DNA of 64,000 bases from Bacteroidota bacterium (GTDB lineage: Bacteria; Bacteroidota; Bacteroidia; Chitinophagales; LD1). The stretch spans positions 1 to 64,000 of the forward strand of contig CANJZE010000019.1 of NCBI GenBank assembly GCA_947479455.1, read 5' to 3'. Made by a program: the position numbers and the translations under genes. Below the pieces are notes generated by a model that saw only the letters and a program-made list of their open reading frames with translations, did no database searches and was not told the origin of the DNA. Shown one piece after another: positions 903-44,661 of this stretch; the stretch's first letter is position 1; each line of letters starts with the position of its first letter.

Positions 903-1685
903 ATGAAGATTGCATTTGCTTTGTCTATCGTCTTTGGTCTATGCTCTCTGGTCTCTCCCTTTTCTCTTCTCAATTCCCACGAAACAAAAGCCATCTTTTT
1001 AGCAGTGGATAATTTCAGCAGTTTCTATTCTGCTTCTAACAATTCTGTTCTCAAGTTTTCTAATGAAGGAAAATTTTTGTACCGCTACGAAGAATTCAAT
1101 TACGGCAAAATTGGAATGATAGATGTGAGCAATCCTATGAAGATGCTCGTGTTCTATCCTGATTTTATGACGGTAGTTACGCTCGATAAATTTTTATCAC
1201 CATTAACTACTTACAATTTTTTTCAGCTGGGTTATCAGAATATTTCTGCTGTGGCCTCTTCTACCGATGGACGAATCTGGTTTTACGACAACACCGATTT
1301 TAAATTGAAGAAAATAGATGAAGCAGGAAAAGTGTTTTTAGAAAGCCAGCCATTGAATGTTTTGTTAGAACAAGCACCCAATCCTAATTTTATGCTGGAG
1401 CGCGATAGTAAAGTTTATATGAACGACACCGCCATTGGTATTTTGGTCTTTGATATTTTTGGGAGTTATGAGAAGACAATTCCATTGAAAGGGCTAAAGA
1501 AATTTCAAATTCTGCAGGACCAGATTGTGTATTTCGACAATCATCAACTCAATTCATACAGCTCGCTTACGCTCGATTTAAAATCGCTTGCTCTGCCCGA
1601 TAGTAGCGATGTAAGCCTTGCCGTGCTTGAAAAAGAACGGTTAGCAGTTTTGAAAAAAGACAAGATTAATTTTTATAGGTATTGA
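903..1685 (+). CDS. Exported protein of unknown function, possible beta-propeller
   Basis: About 260 residues. I chose ATG 903 because it opens a classical signal peptide (MKIAFALSIVFGLCSLVS). The in-frame ATG at 837 would add 22 residues encoded largely by an 8-bp tandem repeat. The mature part has recurring blocks such as GKIGMIDVSNPMKMLVFYP and DGRIWFYDN that resemble blades of an NHL- or WD-like beta-propeller, but I could not define repeats rigorously. It follows lpxH on the same strand and converges on the TPR gene with a two-base gap. No catalytic motif is visible. Function unknown. Confidence 0.65.
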   Translation: MKIAFALSIVFGLCSLVSPFSLLNSHETKAIFLAVDNFSSFYSASNNSVLKFSNEGKFLYRYEEFNYGKIGMIDVSNPMKMLVFYPDFMTVVTLDKFLSPLTTYNFFQLGYQNISAVASSTDGRIWFYDNTDFKLKKIDEAGKVFLESQPLNVLLEQAPNPNFMLERDSKVYMNDTAIGILVFDIFGSYEKTIPLKGLKKFQILQDQIVYFDNHQLNSYSSLTLDLKSLALPDSSDVSLAVLEKERLAVLKKDKINFYRY

Positions 1686-9931: not shown

Positions 9932-10678
9932 ATGAAGAGCTTACATTTATTTCTGTTGTCTGTTGTCTGTTGTCTGTTTTCAAACGCACAGCTAAATCAA
10001 CTCTCTACAACCCCCGAGAAAAAAGAAACTCGAAACGGCAATAAACAATTCGACAAAGGTATTTACACCGATGCAGAAGCGAGCTACAAAAAAGCGCTCG
10101 ACAAAAAGAACAACATGCCCGAAGCCACTTTCAATTTGGGTGATGCCGTGTATGAACAAAAGCGTTACGATGAAGCCGCAAAACAATTTCAGCTTTCGGC
10201 ACAAACCAATACCGATAAAACCATCAAGGCAAAAGCCTATCACAACCTAGGCAATACTTTTTTAGAACAACAGAAATGGGAAGAAGCGACAAAGGCATAT
10301 AAAGAAGCCTTGAAGAACAATTCAAAAGATGCCGATACGAAATATAATTTAGCTTATGCGAACGCAATGCTGATTCAACAAAGAAATCAAGACAAGCAGA
10401 ACAAAGACAACAAGGATAAAAAGGACGATAAAAAAGATAAGAAAGAAGACAAGCAGGATAAGAACAAAGACGATAAAAATAAAGATCACAACAAGGATCA
10501 GCAATCGAAAAATCAGGATAAAAAAGACCAGCAGCAGAAAGCACAACAACCAAAACTTTCAAAAGAAGAAGCAGAAAAAATGTTACAAGCTTTACAAGGC
10601 GAAGAACAAAAGACCAATCAGAAAATGCAGCAGAAACAAATGAAAGTAGTAAACGTGAAGATTGACAAGGATTGGTAA
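9932..10678 (+). CDS. TPR protein with charged tail, BatC/BatE-like
   Basis: 248 residues. The signal peptide (MKSLHLFLLSVVCCLFSNA) is partly encoded by the 7-bp tandem repeat at 9952-9978. Residues about 30-145 hold three TPR units (YTDAEASYKKALDKKNNMPEA, YDEAAKQFQLSA, WEEATKAYKEALKNN). From about 150 to 215 the sequence is almost only Lys, Asp, Asn and Gln, a low-complexity linker. This architecture matches BatC-like proteins of the Bacteroidota Bat (aerotolerance) operon, but no MoxR or VWA-domain Bat genes are in the window, so the assignment is tentative. Confidence 0.7.
   Translation: MKSLHLFLLSVVCCLFSNAQLNQLSTTPEKKETRNGNKQFDKGIYTDAEASYKKALDKKNNMPEATFNLGDAVYEQKRYDEAAKQFQLSAQTNTDKTIKAKAYHNLGNTFLEQQKWEEATKAYKEALKNNSKDADTKYNLAYANAMLIQQRNQDKQNKDNKDKKDDKKDKKEDKQDKNKDDKNKDHNKDQQSKNQDKKDQQQKAQQPKLSKEEAEKMLQALQGEEQKTNQKMQQKQMKVVNVKIDKDW
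9952..9978 (+). repeat. TCTGTTG tandem 7-mers in a signal-peptide coding region
   Basis: Three exact TCTGTTG units followed by a partial fourth. They encode the hydrophobic core LLSVVCCL of the signal peptide of the TPR protein. A gain or loss of one unit would shift frame. Confidence 0.9.
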
Positions 10679-19240: not shown

Positions 19241-19750
19241 CTAAATTGGTTTGAATTGTTCAAAACCCTGTTTACACGAAAAGCAAAAACGAATAGCCCT
19301 GCAAAGCGTTGAACCAAATGCAGAGCGCAAAGTGGTATCAGTGCTTTGGCAATACGGACAGCGAACATTATTGAGCTGTTCTTCTGTTAACTCTTCGTCA
19401 TTCAACATAACCGGTGGTGCTAAACCGAATTTTTCCACTTTCACTTTTGCTTCTGGTTTCATTCTGTCACTCGTCCACTTAGTTTCAAAATCAACTTTCA
19501 CTTCTACCTCATCAAAGCCAAGCTTCAAGACTTCTTCGCGGATATTTTTTTTGATGACATCAATTGCTGGGCAACCAACGAAAGTGGGTGTCATTGTAAT
19601 AGAACAAGTCCGAAGTCCGAAGTCCGATAACGGAAGTTGAATGCCTGTAATCATTCCCATATCCACTACAGAAATCACAGGAATCTCCGGGTCTTTCACA
19701 TTTTCGAGTGCAAGCCAAATTTGTTGTTCTGTAATTTCTGTGATTACCAT
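19241..19750 (-). CDS. paaJ: Phenylacetyl-CoA epoxidase subunit PaaD (PaaJ)
   Basis: 169 residues. The N-terminal MIP18/DUF59-like domain shows VKDPEIPVISVVDMGMI and TPTFVGCPAID; the C-terminus has a zinc-ribbon pair, CPYCQS and CFSCKQGF, as in PaaD. PaaD helps assemble or mature the epoxidase complex. A 7-bp tandem repeat (19607-19627) encodes the segment SDFGLRT in the loop before the TITPT-like strand. That segment looks inserted compared with the family's compact loop. The start overlaps the PaaC gene end by seven bases (19744-19750). Confidence 0.9.
   Translation of the reverse strand: MVITEITEQQIWLALENVKDPEIPVISVVDMGMITGIQLPLSDFGLRTCSITMTPTFVGCPAIDVIKKNIREEVLKLGFDEVEVKVDFETKWTSDRMKPEAKVKVEKFGLAPPVMLNDEELTEEQLNNVRCPYCQSTDTTLRSAFGSTLCRAIRFCFSCKQGFEQFKPI
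19607..19627 (-). repeat. Three exact 7-mers inside paaJ
   Basis: AGTCCGA is repeated three times without error inside coding sequence. Three copies make 21 bp, which keeps frame and yields SDFGLRT in the protein. Confidence 0.92.
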
Positions 19751-38614: not shown

Positions 38615-41600
38615 ATGCGCAAATTCCTATCCAGCATTTATCTGTTGTCTATTGTTTATTGTCTCTCGTCTCAAGAAACAACTTTCAAAACCAACGGACC
38701 CGATGATTATCGCGAAGGTAAACATGCGTTTACTAACGCAACCATCTATATTTCGTACAATCAAAAAATAGATAGTGCAACACTTTACATTGAAAATGGA
38801 AAGGTGTTGGCTGTTACTCCCTCCCCTTCGGGGAGGGCTGGGGAGGGGCTGGGGGCTGGTTTTATCGTTCATGAAATGCAAGGCAAATTCATCTACCCAA
38901 GTTTCATTGATATTTTTTCTGATTACGGAATGCCAGATGTTCCTAAACCAAAAAATTCTGAAGACCCTCAATTAGAATCAAACATCAAAGGCGCTTATGG
39001 ATGGAATCAAGCCATTCACACCGATTTTCATGCCGATAGAAACTTTACAGTGAATGATGGCAAGGCAGATGAATTGCGCAAAATTGGTTTCGGTGCCGTT
39101 CTTACTAACAAGAAAGACGGCATCGCACGCGGCACAGGTGCGGTGGTAACACTTAATAACGACAAAGAAAATTTTGTACTAGTGAAGCCTGATGCTTCTG
39201 CAAATTATTCTTTCAATAAAGGAAGTTCAACGCAAGATTATCCAAGTTCGTTGATGGGAAGTATCGCGCTCATTCGTCAAACGTATTACGATGCACAGTG
39301 GTATAAGACTTCTATTGATAAAAAAGAGTTCAACATTAATTTGCAAGAGTGGAATTTGGAACAAACTATTCCACAAATTTTTGATGCCGGTGGCGATTGG
39401 CAAAAAGTTTTGCGTGCCGATAAAGTAGGCGATGAGTTTTCGGTTCAATACATCATTAAAGCAAAGGGTGATGAATACAAGCGCGTTGATGAAATAAAAA
39501 AGAGCAATGCAAAAATTATCACGTCATTAAATTTTCCGAAAGCATTTGATGTTGAAGACCCTTATAAGGCTAACTGGGTTTCGCTGGAGGATATGAAGCA
39601 TTGGGAATTGGCACCAACGAATTGCGCAGCATTGGCAAAAGCCGCGATTGATTTTTCGATCACTACTTCTGATTTAGAAAAGAAAGATGACTTCCTTGGT
39701 AACCTTCGCAAAGCGGTGAAATATGGTTTGGATTCTTCCCTCGCGTTGAAGGCGCTCACTTACAATCCTGCATCGTTTATAAATGTGTACGACAAAGTTG
39801 GTTCGCTTGAAGCAGGAAAGCTGGCGAACTTTTTTATTACATCGAAACCATTGTTTGATGAAAAATGCGATCTGAACGAAAACTGGATTCAGGGAACGCG
39901 CTATGAGATAAAAGCATTTGACCAGAAAGATATTCGTGGAGAATATGCTTTAACGGTTGGCAACAACAAATACAAACTAAAATTAAACGGAGAGGCGTCC
40001 TCGTCTAAAGCACAGATTATTTTAAGCGACACAAATAAATTAGACGCGAAGCTTTCTTACAAAAGCAACGATATCTCTCTTTCTTTTTCTGCTGATAAAA
40101 AAGCAGAACAAAGCAAAATTCGTTTAACCGGAACGATTGACTACAACACAAAATCGTGGAGCGGTAATGGTCAGCTTGCTAATGGCGATTGGATAACATG
40201 GAGTGCCACACAAACCAAAGGACCGGAGGCAGATACCACAAAACCTAAAAAAGATTCAGTTGATGTAACGAAGAATTTGGGCAAAGTAATTTTCCCTTTC
40301 CTGGCTTACGGCAATGAGCAAATTCCAACACAAGAAAACTTCTTGATCAAAAACGGAACCGTTTGGACCAACGAGACAGAACATGTTTTGGCAAACACAG
40401 ATGTAATCATTCGTGCAGGTAAAACTTCTTCTATTGGAAAAAATTTAGCCTGTGCCGATTGCAAAACAATTGACGCCACCAATAAATTTGTTACCGCTGG
40501 AATTATTGATGAGCACAATCACATCGCCATTCAAGAAGGTGTGAACGAAGGTACCGAAGCGAGCAGCGCAGAGGTTCGCATTAGCGATGTGGTGAGTTGC
40601 GATGACATTAATATTTACAGGCAGCTTGCCGGTGGAGTTATTGGCGCGCAGTTGTTGCACGGTTCTGCAAATCCTATTGGCGGACAAAGTGCGTTGGTGA
40701 AATTTCGTTGGGGATATACACCGGAGAAAATGAAAATTGAGGGAGCCGATGGCTTCATCAAGTTTGCTCTTGGTGAAAATGTAAAGCAATCTAATTGGGG
40801 CGACCACAATCGTATTCGTTATCCGCAAACGCGCATGGGTGTTGAGCAGACTTATTATAATTATTTTACCAAAGCAAAAGAATATCAGAAACAGTGGGGT
40901 ACTTACAACGCAGCAAAAGTCAAAGGTGTTTCACCGCGAAAAGATATTGAGCTGGATGCGATCTCTGAAATTCTGAACAAGAAAAGATTTATCACTTGTC
41001 ACAGTTATGTGCAGAGTGAAATAAATATGCTGATGCACGTGGCTGATTCATTCAACTTTAAAGTGAACACGTTCACGCATATTTTGGAAGGTTATAAAGT
41101 AGCGGATAAAATGAAGGCGCACGGAGTGAACGCCTCAACCTTTGCTGACTGGTGGGCTTACAAGTATGAAGTGATTGATGCTATTCCGTACAACGCGGCA
41201 ATTCTTACAAAAGTTGGAATCAACACCGCTGTAAATTCTGACGATGCAGAAATGGCGCGCAGATTAAATCAGGAAGCAGCGAAGTCAATTAAGTATGGCG
41301 GACTTACCGAAGAACAAGCATGGAAAATGGTTACACTTAATCCTGCCAAGATGCTTCACCTCGATAAACAAACCGGTTCAATAAAAGTTGGAAAAGATGC
41401 AGACGTTGTAATATGGAGCGCGAACCCGCTTTCTGTTTATGCTAAAGCAGAAAAAACTTTTGTAGATGGAATTTTATTCTTCGACATTGGACGTGATGCA
41501 CAGAAACGCGATGAAATCCGCAAAGAACGCGCACGTTTAATTCAGAAAATGCTCGATGATAAAAAAGGCGGAGGCGGCACACAAGAGCCTTCACCTAAAG

Positions 41601-41647
41601 GCAACAAAGAATATTCGTGTGGTGACTTTGAAGAACACAATCATTAA
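38615..41647 (+). CDS. Two-domain amidohydrolase-like exported protein
   Basis: 1010 residues. A signal peptide (about 1-20; its second half is encoded by 7-bp repeats at 38641-38675) precedes two amidohydrolase-like domains. The N-terminal one lacks the HxH metal motif. The C-terminal one has DEHNHIA (HxH), CHSYVQSE, THILEG and NSDDAEMARRL, typical of imidazolonepropionase-like enzymes. Residues about 70-83 (PSPSGRAGEGLGAG) are encoded by a palindromic repeat insertion at 38817-38858. It is followed 19 bases later by a second amidohydrolase-like gene; the pair is probably one functional unit. Substrate unknown. Confidence 0.82.
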   Translation: MRKFLSSIYLLSIVYCLSSQETTFKTNGPDDYREGKHAFTNATIYISYNQKIDSATLYIENGKVLAVTPSPSGRAGEGLGAGFIVHEMQGKFIYPSFIDIFSDYGMPDVPKPKNSEDPQLESNIKGAYGWNQAIHTDFHADRNFTVNDGKADELRKIGFGAVLTNKKDGIARGTGAVVTLNNDKENFVLVKPDASANYSFNKGSSTQDYPSSLMGSIALIRQTYYDAQWYKTSIDKKEFNINLQEWNLEQTIPQIFDAGGDWQKVLRADKVGDEFSVQYIIKAKGDEYKRVDEIKKSNAKIITSLNFPKAFDVEDPYKANWVSLEDMKHWELAPTNCAALAKAAIDFSITTSDLEKKDDFLGNLRKAVKYGLDSSLALKALTYNPASFINVYDKVGSLEAGKLANFFITSKPLFDEKCDLNENWIQGTRYEIKAFDQKDIRGEYALTVGNNKYKLKLNGEASSSKAQIILSDTNKLDAKLSYKSNDISLSFSADKKAEQSKIRLTGTIDYNTKSWSGNGQLANGDWITWSATQTKGPEADTTKPKKDSVDVTKNLGKVIFPFLAYGNEQIPTQENFLIKNGTVWTNETEHVLANTDVIIRAGKTSSIGKNLACADCKTIDATNKFVTAGIIDEHNHIAIQEGVNEGTEASSAEVRISDVVSCDDINIYRQLAGGVIGAQLLHGSANPIGGQSALVKFRWGYTPEKMKIEGADGFIKFALGENVKQSNWGDHNRIRYPQTRMGVEQTYYNYFTKAKEYQKQWGTYNAAKVKGVSPRKDIELDAISEILNKKRFITCHSYVQSEINMLMHVADSFNFKVNTFTHILEGYKVADKMKAHGVNASTFADWWAYKYEVIDAIPYNAAILTKVGINTAVNSDDAEMARRLNQEAAKSIKYGGLTEEQAWKMVTLNPAKMLHLDKQTGSIKVGKDADVVIWSANPLSVYAKAEKTFVDGILFFDIGRDAQKRDEIRKERARLIQKMLDDKKGGGGTQEPSPKGNKEYSCGDFEEHNH
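38641..38675 (+). repeat. Degenerate 7-mers encoding a signal peptide
   Basis: TCTGTTG, TCTATTG, TTTATTG, TCTCTCG and TCTCAAG follow one another and code for the hydrophobic core and cleavage region (LLSIVYCLSSQ). Confidence 0.8.
38817..38858 (+). repeat. GC-rich palindromic element inserted in a coding sequence
   Basis: The core CTCCCCTTCGGGGAG and the following GGGCTGGGGAGGGGCTGGGGG form a compact GC-rich unit in AT-rich DNA. It is read in frame as PSPSGRAGEGLGAG. The same peptide-like signature is widespread in Bacteroidota proteins, consistent with a protein-coding repeat insertion. Confidence 0.85.
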
Positions 41648-41665: not shown

Positions 41666-42970
41666 ATGAATTTAAGAACAGCATTAATCATAATCATAAG
41701 CGTTATCTGCGTTCCATTTGCTTTTTCTCAAAGCGATGTCCCCGCACCGGCACCCAAACAATCGCAAAGCATTTACTTAACCCACGCCACTATTCACACC
41801 GGCACCGGTAAGGTTTTACAAAATGCTACCATCGGTTTCGAGAACGGCAAAATTATTTTGCTCGAAGAAAATCCTGTTTTCAAAACCGATGAAACCATGG
41901 GCAAAGTAATTGACTGCACCGGCAAACAAATTTACCCAGGCATTATTGCACCAAACACAAAAGTTGGTTTAGATGAAATTGAAGCCGTACGCGCCACAAA
42001 CGATTATGCCGAAGTTGGAAATTACAATCCCGATGCGCGCGCCATTATTGCTTACAACACCGACTCGCGTGTAACTCCAACAGTACGCAGCAACGGTGTT
42101 TTGTATGCACAAAGCACTCCGCTTTACGGAGTTATCTCCGGTACTTCAGCAGTGGTGCAATTAGATGCCTGGAACTGGGAAGATGCTCTCATAAAAGAAG
42201 ACGGAGTTTGGATGAATTGGCCAAATATGCAAAGCCGCGGTGGCTGGTGGGCCGAGCCTTCGGCACCAACGACTAATAAGGATTACGATAAACAGGTAAA
42301 CTCTATTAGAGATTATTTCAGTGATGCAAAAAGTTATACCGATGCCAATGAGCACAACAAAACAAATCTTCGTTTCGAAGCCATGCGCGATTTATTTTCA
42401 AAAACTAAAACACTTTACATCAATGTTGATCGCGTAAAAGAAATTCAAAACGCCATTGCTTTTGCCGAAGAATTTAATTTGCATTTAGTGATTAGCGGTG
42501 GTGAAGAAAGTTGGATGATTGCTGATGAACTCGCGAAAAAAAATATCGCTGTAATTCTTGGCAAAACACACGAACTGCCTGCCAGTGATGATGCGGATAT
42601 TGACCAGGAATTTAAAGCACCCACGTTGCTGAAAAAGGCAGGTGTGCTTTTTTGTTTGAGCATACCCGGTGGCTTTTGGCAAGAAAGAAATTTGGCGTTC
42701 AACGCAGGGAGTGCAGCTGCTTACGGTTTGAGTAAAGAAGAAGCATTGTCTGCAATTACTTCAAACACGGCAAAAATTCTCGGGGTTGATGCGCTAATTG
42801 GTTCTCTTGAAAAAGGAAAAGAAGCGTCTCTGATTGTTTCCTCTGGTGATGTGCTGGACATGAAGACATCGAACATTGAATATGCTTTCATCAGCGGAAG
42901 ATTGATTGACCTGAACAATAAGCAGAAAGAACTCAACGCAAAGTTCAACAAGAAATACGGTGTGAATTAA
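41666..42970 (+). CDS. Amidohydrolase-like protein without metal motif
   Basis: 434 residues. A signal peptide (TALIIIISVICVPFAFSQ) leads to an amidohydrolase-like beta-sandwich and barrel. IHTGTGKVLQNATIGFENGKI is the usual N-terminal sandwich; LGVDALIGSLEKGKEASLIV is the usual C-terminal strand. At the position of the HxH motif the sequence is PGIIAPNTKVGL, without His. It is therefore probably not an active hydrolase on its own and may pair with the preceding protein. The genes are 19 bases apart, and this protein ends four bases into the convergent Ig-like gene. Confidence 0.8.
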   Translation: MNLRTALIIIISVICVPFAFSQSDVPAPAPKQSQSIYLTHATIHTGTGKVLQNATIGFENGKIILLEENPVFKTDETMGKVIDCTGKQIYPGIIAPNTKVGLDEIEAVRATNDYAEVGNYNPDARAIIAYNTDSRVTPTVRSNGVLYAQSTPLYGVISGTSAVVQLDAWNWEDALIKEDGVWMNWPNMQSRGGWWAEPSAPTTNKDYDKQVNSIRDYFSDAKSYTDANEHNKTNLRFEAMRDLFSKTKTLYINVDRVKEIQNAIAFAEEFNLHLVISGGEESWMIADELAKKNIAVILGKTHELPASDDADIDQEFKAPTLLKKAGVLFCLSIPGGFWQERNLAFNAGSAAAYGLSKEEALSAITSNTAKILGVDALIGSLEKGKEASLIVSSGDVLDMKTSNIEYAFISGRLIDLNNKQKELNAKFNKKYGVN

Positions 42971-44661
42971 AACTTCACTTCTGCGTCTAAATCCCAGCCG
43001 CCTTTGAGTTGGTAGCTTTCTTTGTAAGTGAATATTTTTTCGGGTTGCTTTTTATTTTTTAAATTTCCCGTATCCCACACTCCGTTTTTATTGGTGTCTT
43101 CAATCACAAGAAATTTATAGCTGCCCGCTAAAATATTTTCTGCACTAACTTTTCTTTCTCCGTTACCGGTTAAGAAAAATTCCTGTACGGTATTGTTGCT
43201 CGCATCAAGCAGCTTTATCACATAATAATTTTCGGGGTGTTGTGTCTTGAGTGTAATGCGCAAATTGCCGTAACTGTTTTTTGCATTTGTAATAAATTTG
43301 TAAACTAGTTTGCTATTCCACTTTCCGAAAATATCCTGCAATGTTGAATCCGGAATTTCTAAACGATATTTTGTATTTTCCTTTTTCTCAAAATCGACAG
43401 CAATGCTCTGTTTTGTTTTTTCTTCCAACACAAATTTCAGTTCCGAATAATTTGTGCTTGAATCTTCGAATAAATGAAGTTGTTTTGTTTCGTTTATACC
43501 GATGCACGGTCGGGTCAAATTTATTTTAATCGCTTTATTAAACTCCTGAAAAGTAAAATCAACCCGTTTAGCAGTGTCTTCTTTGCTTCTATTTGGTTGA
43601 TTTGCAACACCTGACAAAATATTATTCCGCGTGAAGAGAGAATCTTTCTTCACAAATTTCAGTTCCAACCTCGCGGTATCAAGAATGGTATCGTTTGCAC
43701 TGAGAAAGAAGCTGTCTTTTTGAATATAATATTTTGAATACCAGTATATTATGGTATCATTGGTGGGGTAAATATACGCAAAGTCTTCCTTCGACAATCC
43801 TTTCCAGTCCAGTTTAAAATTTGATATAGGTCTATTATAACTAATTTTTAGTTGACCCGGACTTAAAGACTTAACCATATCTAATTGCGCCTTCCTTTTA
43901 TTTTCATCAAACAAAAAAAGCTTGACTTCATCGTTTACCGAATCGGTCAAGTCAAGAATCGAATCTGAAAAGGCGATTAGCTCGTTTGGCTGGTCGTAGA
44001 TGTAATTATAGTTCTGGTCTTTGAGCGCATAAACCAAATATTTGCCCGATTTGATATTTTCAATTTTAAACTGCCCCGATTTATCTGTCTTGGCAAAGTA
44101 AAATGGTTTTGATTTCAGAATTCCATTTACTGAATCCTGCGGATAAAGAGATACCACGATACCTTCTTGGTTTGTATTGTCCTTCGCCAGCACCACTGAG
44201 CCAGATACTTTCTGCGAATCTATGAAATCACCAGTAGAAAAGACATAGGTCAAGTTACTAGCCGTGTTTCCTTCGTTTAAATCCTTTACATCATCAGCAA
44301 AGTTGATGGTGTAAGTGGTGCTGTCGCGCAGCGGGCTCTTTAATTTTATGGTAAGCGTTCGGCCTTCGACATGAAATTCGGGTTTTTTGTCTTGTGGAGG
44401 AGAGATAAGCGTTTGTGTAAATCCTCCATCCTTTAAAAATTCGTTGAAGGTTATTTTTACTTGCGTGCTGGTGAAACGAAGCGATTTATTGGGAGGTGAA
44501 ATCTTTTTTGCTTCAGGTGGTTTTTCATCTTTCTTTCCTCCGGTAGGAACACTTTCGTTAGCGCAGCCGAATTGTATAAGGGCAACAACGACCATTATAA
44601 CTATCGAGATTGCTCTTCTGAGGTTGAATTGATAATTGATAGTTGATAATTGATAACTCAT
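42967..44661 (-). CDS. Ig-like domain lipoprotein
   Basis: 564 residues. The N-terminal n-region (MSYQLSTINYQFNLRR) is encoded by a 7-bp tandem repeat; the hydrophobic stretch and Cys (ALIQFGCANES) make a lipoprotein signal, with a non-standard QFG before Cys. The first module (LRFTSTQVKITFNEFLKDGG and DSTTYTINFADDVKD) is a bacterial Ig-like SbsA/Big_5-like domain. Later beta-rich modules include a carboxypeptidase-regulatory-like strand set (GQFKIENIKSGKYLVYALKD). Role unknown. It is three bases past the mnmG stop and is likely co-transcribed with mnmG. Confidence 0.75.
   Translation of the reverse strand: MSYQLSTINYQFNLRRAISIVIMVVVALIQFGCANESVPTGGKKDEKPPEAKKISPPNKSLRFTSTQVKITFNEFLKDGGFTQTLISPPQDKKPEFHVEGRTLTIKLKSPLRDSTTYTINFADDVKDLNEGNTASNLTYVFSTGDFIDSQKVSGSVVLAKDNTNQEGIVVSLYPQDSVNGILKSKPFYFAKTDKSGQFKIENIKSGKYLVYALKDQNYNYIYDQPNELIAFSDSILDLTDSVNDEVKLFLFDENKRKAQLDMVKSLSPGQLKISYNRPISNFKLDWKGLSKEDFAYIYPTNDTIIYWYSKYYIQKDSFFLSANDTILDTARLELKFVKKDSLFTRNNILSGVANQPNRSKEDTAKRVDFTFQEFNKAIKINLTRPCIGINETKQLHLFEDSSTNYSELKFVLEEKTKQSIAVDFEKKENTKYRLEIPDSTLQDIFGKWNSKLVYKFITNAKNSYGNLRITLKTQHPENYYVIKLLDASNNTVQEFFLTGNGERKVSAENILAGSYKFLVIEDTNKNGVWDTGNLKNKKQPEKIFTYKESYQLKGGWDLDAEVKF
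44629..44656 (-). repeat. TTGATAA 7-mers at the start of a gene
   Basis: Four units (TTGATAA, TTGATAG, TTGATAA, TTGATAA) at the 5' end of the Ig-like lipoprotein gene. They encode residues 3-11 (YQLSTINYQ) before the signal helix. Confidence 0.88.

Follow-up and report, generated by a model that had tools for sequence, protein, structure and literature searches.

A TCTGTTG array encodes the core of a signal peptide

The window, a stretch of 64,000 nucleotides from a Bacteroidota genome, contains a gene for a BatC-like TPR protein (9932–10678, forward strand) that carries a tandem heptamer array close to its start codon. This array (9952–9978, forward strand) reads TCTGTTGTCTGTTGTCTGTTGTCTGTT and was detected by TRF with a period of 7, 3.9 copies and a 100% match. 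Translation of the ORF agreed with the original prediction that the TCTGTTG repeat encodes the residues LLSVVCCL, which form the hydrophobic core of a signal peptide. The signal peptide region comprises 20 codons (9932–9991, forward strand; MKSLHLFLLSVVCCLFSNAQ), and the predicted peptide MKSLHLFLLSVVCCLFSNA is followed by QLNQ, with a cleavage site between SNA and Q that was judged by eye. A pattern search found a single copy of the exact 21-mer of this array genome-wide, so the 21-mer was rejected as a dispersed element.

The protein encoded by ORF 9932–10678 contains TPR repeats and its best NCBIfam match is the BatC model NF047507, a Leptospira-specific model whose curated cut-off of 175 bits was missed (61 bits). 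The gene next to it on the upstream side in the window is O-methyltransferase-like. The name BatC-like appears fair, since the orthologue lies 3′ of a VWA-like (BatA/BatB-like, by eye) gene in four genomes (G006, G013, G014 and G018).

Four further heptamer arrays are found in the window. A degenerate TCTRTTG array (38641–38672, forward strand) forms the core of the signal peptide MRKFLSSIYLLSIVYCLSSQ of an amidohydrolase-family protein (ORF 38615–41647), while an AATTGAT array (44627–44656, reverse strand; TTATCAA in the coding sense) encodes the N-terminal part of the signal peptide MSYQLSTINYQFNLRR at the N-terminus of ORF 42967–44661, where the aligned sequence of the relative G015 is shorter by 24 nt, in frame. 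Similar tracts had been pointed out at 38641 and 44629, and both are real and lie in signal peptides. A degenerate GGTCTAT array (923–956, forward strand) lies in the signal-peptide-like N-terminus of a gene starting at 903, and an AAGTCCG array (19606–19627, reverse strand; CGGACTT in the coding sense) encodes a loop of PaaD (ORF 19241–19750). A period-8/16 tract (TGTGTTTACGTGTTTA) occupies positions 861–894, immediately 5′ of the start at 903.

Heptamer arrays are abundant and patchily distributed

Genome coverage was provided by pattern searches together with sampled stretches amounting to about a quarter of the genome. Exact period-7 runs occurred 12 times in 464 kb of this genome, with 0 expected under a Markov-3 model, and 28 period-7 arrays were found in 620 kb outside the window where a Markov-4 model predicts approximately one, which bears out the expectation that such a tract is unlikely to arise by chance. 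The same 620 kb held another 21 arrays with a period of 14, and other periods were near background, with periods 9 and 6 slightly raised. Array density was 48 per Mb in this genome (G000) and 54 per Mb in its close relative G015, compared with 13, 8 and 0 per Mb in G009, G007 and G018, respectively. The units are varied and include AAGTCCG, GAAATAC, TCAATNN and CAATATT, among others. Each of three heptamer classes that were searched was found in a few species of the genus only, with matches in no other genus among 40 relatives. Pairs of TCTRTTG are missing from 34 of 41 related genomes and are present in seven of 395 sampled Bacteroidota genomes, where this genome has the most matches (14, versus at most three elsewhere). 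An excess over chance at many sites, a patchy distribution and a preference for gene starts over conserved coding sequence, all features of dispersed heptanucleotide arrays (STRR/LSSR-like), are thus found here. Most of the aligned window is 83–93% identical to G015, yet stretches of L208 (G000:C41) and L247 (G015:C66), as well as of L205 and L249, are near-identical between the two genomes, which may reflect recent exchange or the mis-binning of a contig.

To place the arrays relative to genes, 684 kb containing 33 arrays was considered, using gene starts that are our own calls from a gene caller with 87% coding; because of this, the categories "upstream" and "first codons" are partly interchangeable. 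Thirteen intergenic arrays, compared with 1.2 expected, lie upstream of a called start at a distance of no more than 60 bp, which upholds the proposed concentration of heptamer tracts around gene starts. Another six (3.7 expected) fall within the first 45 codons, and ten (25 expected) are in the interiors of coding sequences.

Hydrophobic heptamers are used as signal peptide cores

Calls of signal peptides rely on a simple rule for hydrophobicity and on inspection by eye. In this genome, 10 of 11 TCTRTTG sites lie in the coding orientation within the hydrophobic cores of signal peptides or lipoprotein signals (translations by eye), and the same is true of 29 of 38 sites across G000, G015 and G004, in genes that by eye are unrelated. 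A lag-7 score of at least 9 was obtained for 14 of 149 signal-peptide-like N-termini in G000 and for seven of 111 in G015, compared with 0.15 in each case after codon shuffling, and for none of 161 such N-termini in three control genomes. An excess of self-matches at lag 4, for which we have no explanation, accompanies the lag-7 excess in the signal-peptide-like N-termini of both G000 and G015 (z = 5.7 and 4.0).

The properties of the unit match this usage. As 7 mod 3 is 1, any stop-free heptamer array encodes an identical cyclic heptapeptide in all three frames by simple arithmetic. The cyclic heptapeptides of TCTRTTG, SVVCCLL and SIVYCLL, are among the most hydrophobic, and TCTGTTG falls within the top 1% when stop-free heptamers are ordered by hydrophobicity; such a strongly hydrophobic peptide is usable as a signal peptide core. 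Heptamers found in n-regions, GAAAAAC and GAAATAC among them, rank low on the same scale. In a large genome collection, 56 of the 82 TCTRTTG ×3 arrays among the matches listed are noncoding, and those in other phyla are mostly so, which means that use in signal peptides is no universal trait of TCTRTTG.

One signal peptide array in G000, near position 1500 of L052 (C8:35539–35554), contains a palindrome-like stretch, CATCCCGCGTTTCTTCGCGGGAATG, that keeps the frame. The G004 orthologue of this protein lacks the stretch.

Units often change between orthologues at constant length

At orthologous sites, the repeated unit often differs between species in all copies together, without any difference in array length. 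At the BatC-like site, TCTGTTG in this genome corresponds to TTTTCTG in G016 and TTTCTGY in G001, with traces only in G015 and no change in length. The PaaD loop is built from CGGACTT, CAGACTT, CGGATGT or ACAACAG depending on the species, with equal loop length (25 genomes compared; loci L260–L285), and several other genomes have a loop that is approximately four residues shorter and carries no array. Similarly, a signal peptide (L203:7423–7452) has TCTATTG here and TTTACTA in G015, and a lipoprotein signal has TTGTCTA in G000 and GTGGTCT ×4 in G010. In a further case, adjacent arrays of one long gene (L066:13966–14032 and L246) consist of TCTGTTG in G015 and of ACTTCGG/ATGTCCG here.

For orthologous arrays without gaps in which G000 and G015 differ, periodicity in the second species exceeded the expectation under independent point mutation in 12 of 14 cases (p = 0.007) and, under another selection that shares loci with the first, in 13 of 16 (p = 0.003). 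The BatC-like pair from these two genomes, taken alone, showed no excess homogeneity and fits plain decay. A permutation test that placed between-species mismatches in the same heptamer phase was set aside, because periodicity in both sequences makes such a test circular. The likeliest cause of this turnover would be paired slippage or conversion within arrays combined with frame selection on length, with independent births at the same site as a possible alternative.

The array probably acts as a constant export signal

We consider it probable that the TCTGTTG tract belongs to a large dispersed population of heptamer arrays and that at this site it provides a constant export signal instead of a switch. 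Such arrays would arise and be homogenised locally by slippage or conversion, and would persist where they do little harm: immediately 5′ of genes and within variable loops or signal peptides, positions in which they are indeed observed. Hydrophobic TCTRTTG could then become a signal peptide core, with polar or charged heptamers passing to the flanking parts, and selection on the reading frame would hold the length of the array; it is this constraint on length that would make the array here a constant signal. A broader proposal, which we put forward tentatively, is that this genus repeatedly draws on heptamer arrays as raw material for its signal peptides. Since the peptide specified by a stop-free array does not depend on the frame, slippage adjacent to a start codon may create or renew export signals, with concerted swaps of units, length under frame selection and rare, transient OFF cells.

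A regulatory role offers a different account of the position near gene starts, in which a translational or transcriptional regulator binds the arrays and the coding of signal peptides is secondary. The 13 arrays immediately upstream of called starts favour this account, as does the like placement described for TAACTGA repeats (PMC4679880). However, the units differ among genes and among orthologues, a poor fit to one binding protein, and within signal peptides the heptamer suits the chemistry of the encoded region; we therefore regard a regulatory site as unlikely.

The original prediction instead held that slippage at this tract could switch export or expression on and off. Its premise is correct: a gain or loss of one or two units causes the ORF from 9932 to stop after 18–39 aa, so that the gene would be off, and the addition of three units keeps the frame. 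The apparent homogenisation of arrays during evolution, which implies some slippage or conversion, is also in keeping with a phase-variable contingency locus, and the opa genes of Neisseria provide a direct precedent. The switch itself was not supported by the comparisons. The BatC-like signal peptide is exactly 20 codons long in all five species compared, and in the amidohydrolase (38615) the distance from the ATG to the conserved region is equal in seven species and differs by whole codons in seven others, with four unaligned. Seven genomes contributed 35 genes with signal peptide arrays, of which 28 start at an in-frame ATG and seven apparently use GTG or TTG; none has an OFF-frame allele, defined as an ATG reading into the array in another frame. 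All of these comparisons are between consensus sequences of different species. The tract is also short, with 3.9 copies compared with the 13–24 of the known switching heptamer of hmw1A. A contingency locus thus appears quite improbable. For annotation, the case cautions that short repeats which break the frame near a start codon are not necessarily a sign of phase variation. Finally, it is very improbable that the runs are a by-product of composition, arising by chance from the T-rich hydrophobic codons of signal peptide cores, because although Leu, Val, Cys and Phe codons are abundant there and a lag-4 excess is also seen, codon-shuffled signal peptides are nearly devoid of such runs, control genomes have none and most related genomes lack TCTRTTG pairs.

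Relationship to known repeat systems

A close parallel to the dispersed arrays is provided by the TAACTGA heptamer direct repeats described by MacGregor (2015) near starts in Beggiatoaceae, cyanobacteria and some Bacteroidetes, which were proposed as binding sites for a translational or transcriptional regulator (PMC4679880). The same paper cites Mrazek 2007 for long simple sequence repeats that are rich in heptanucleotides. Like the arrays reported here, TAACTGA repeats are short, dispersed, patchy among relatives, often near start codons and open in one orientation. Unlike them, many heptamers coexist in the present genome, hydrophobic ones lie within signal peptide codons and the unit varies between orthologues at constant length.

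Export signals that vary in phase through heptamers had been thought undescribed, and this is partly wrong. Switching by repeats in a region coding for a signal peptide is classical: the CTCTT repeats of Neisseria opa lie in the leader peptide coding region and are phase-variable (PMC3899988, PMC3960869). As at the BatC-like gene, a non-triplet tandem repeat encodes part of the signal peptide and a change in copy number causes a frameshift, but opa copy number varies and switches expression, whereas the species compared here share one length and no OFF state was encountered. Phase variation by a 7-bp unit is likewise already known, at a promoter, from hmw1A of Haemophilus influenzae, with 13–24 copies (PMC8262952). 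In hmw1A as in the BatC-like gene, a 7-bp unit lies near the start of a gene for an exported protein, although the hmw1A repeat is a promoter/5′ UTR element of variable copy number and the array here is a coding tract of 3.9 copies.

We found no description in the open-access literature of signal peptides that are recurrently built from heptamer arrays, with units swapped at fixed length, and this repeated use of heptamers to construct export signals looks new. Signal peptides evolve fast and the origin of their sequences is seldom traceable. A genus with many visibly heptamer-built signal peptides would make the birth and turnover of export signals directly traceable, and would offer a test case for the concerted evolution of very short repeats under reading-frame constraint.

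Outside signal peptides, arrays in the interiors of genes appear to be located in linkers or loops. In-frame heptamer arrays were also observed within conserved enzymes (L212:6682–6714, L074:16442–16474, L210:12457–12484, L063:7261–7323 and L214:883–915), which by eye resemble PurH, SerC, pyruvate carboxylase, an E2 acyltransferase linker and a metallo-beta-lactamase fold protein.
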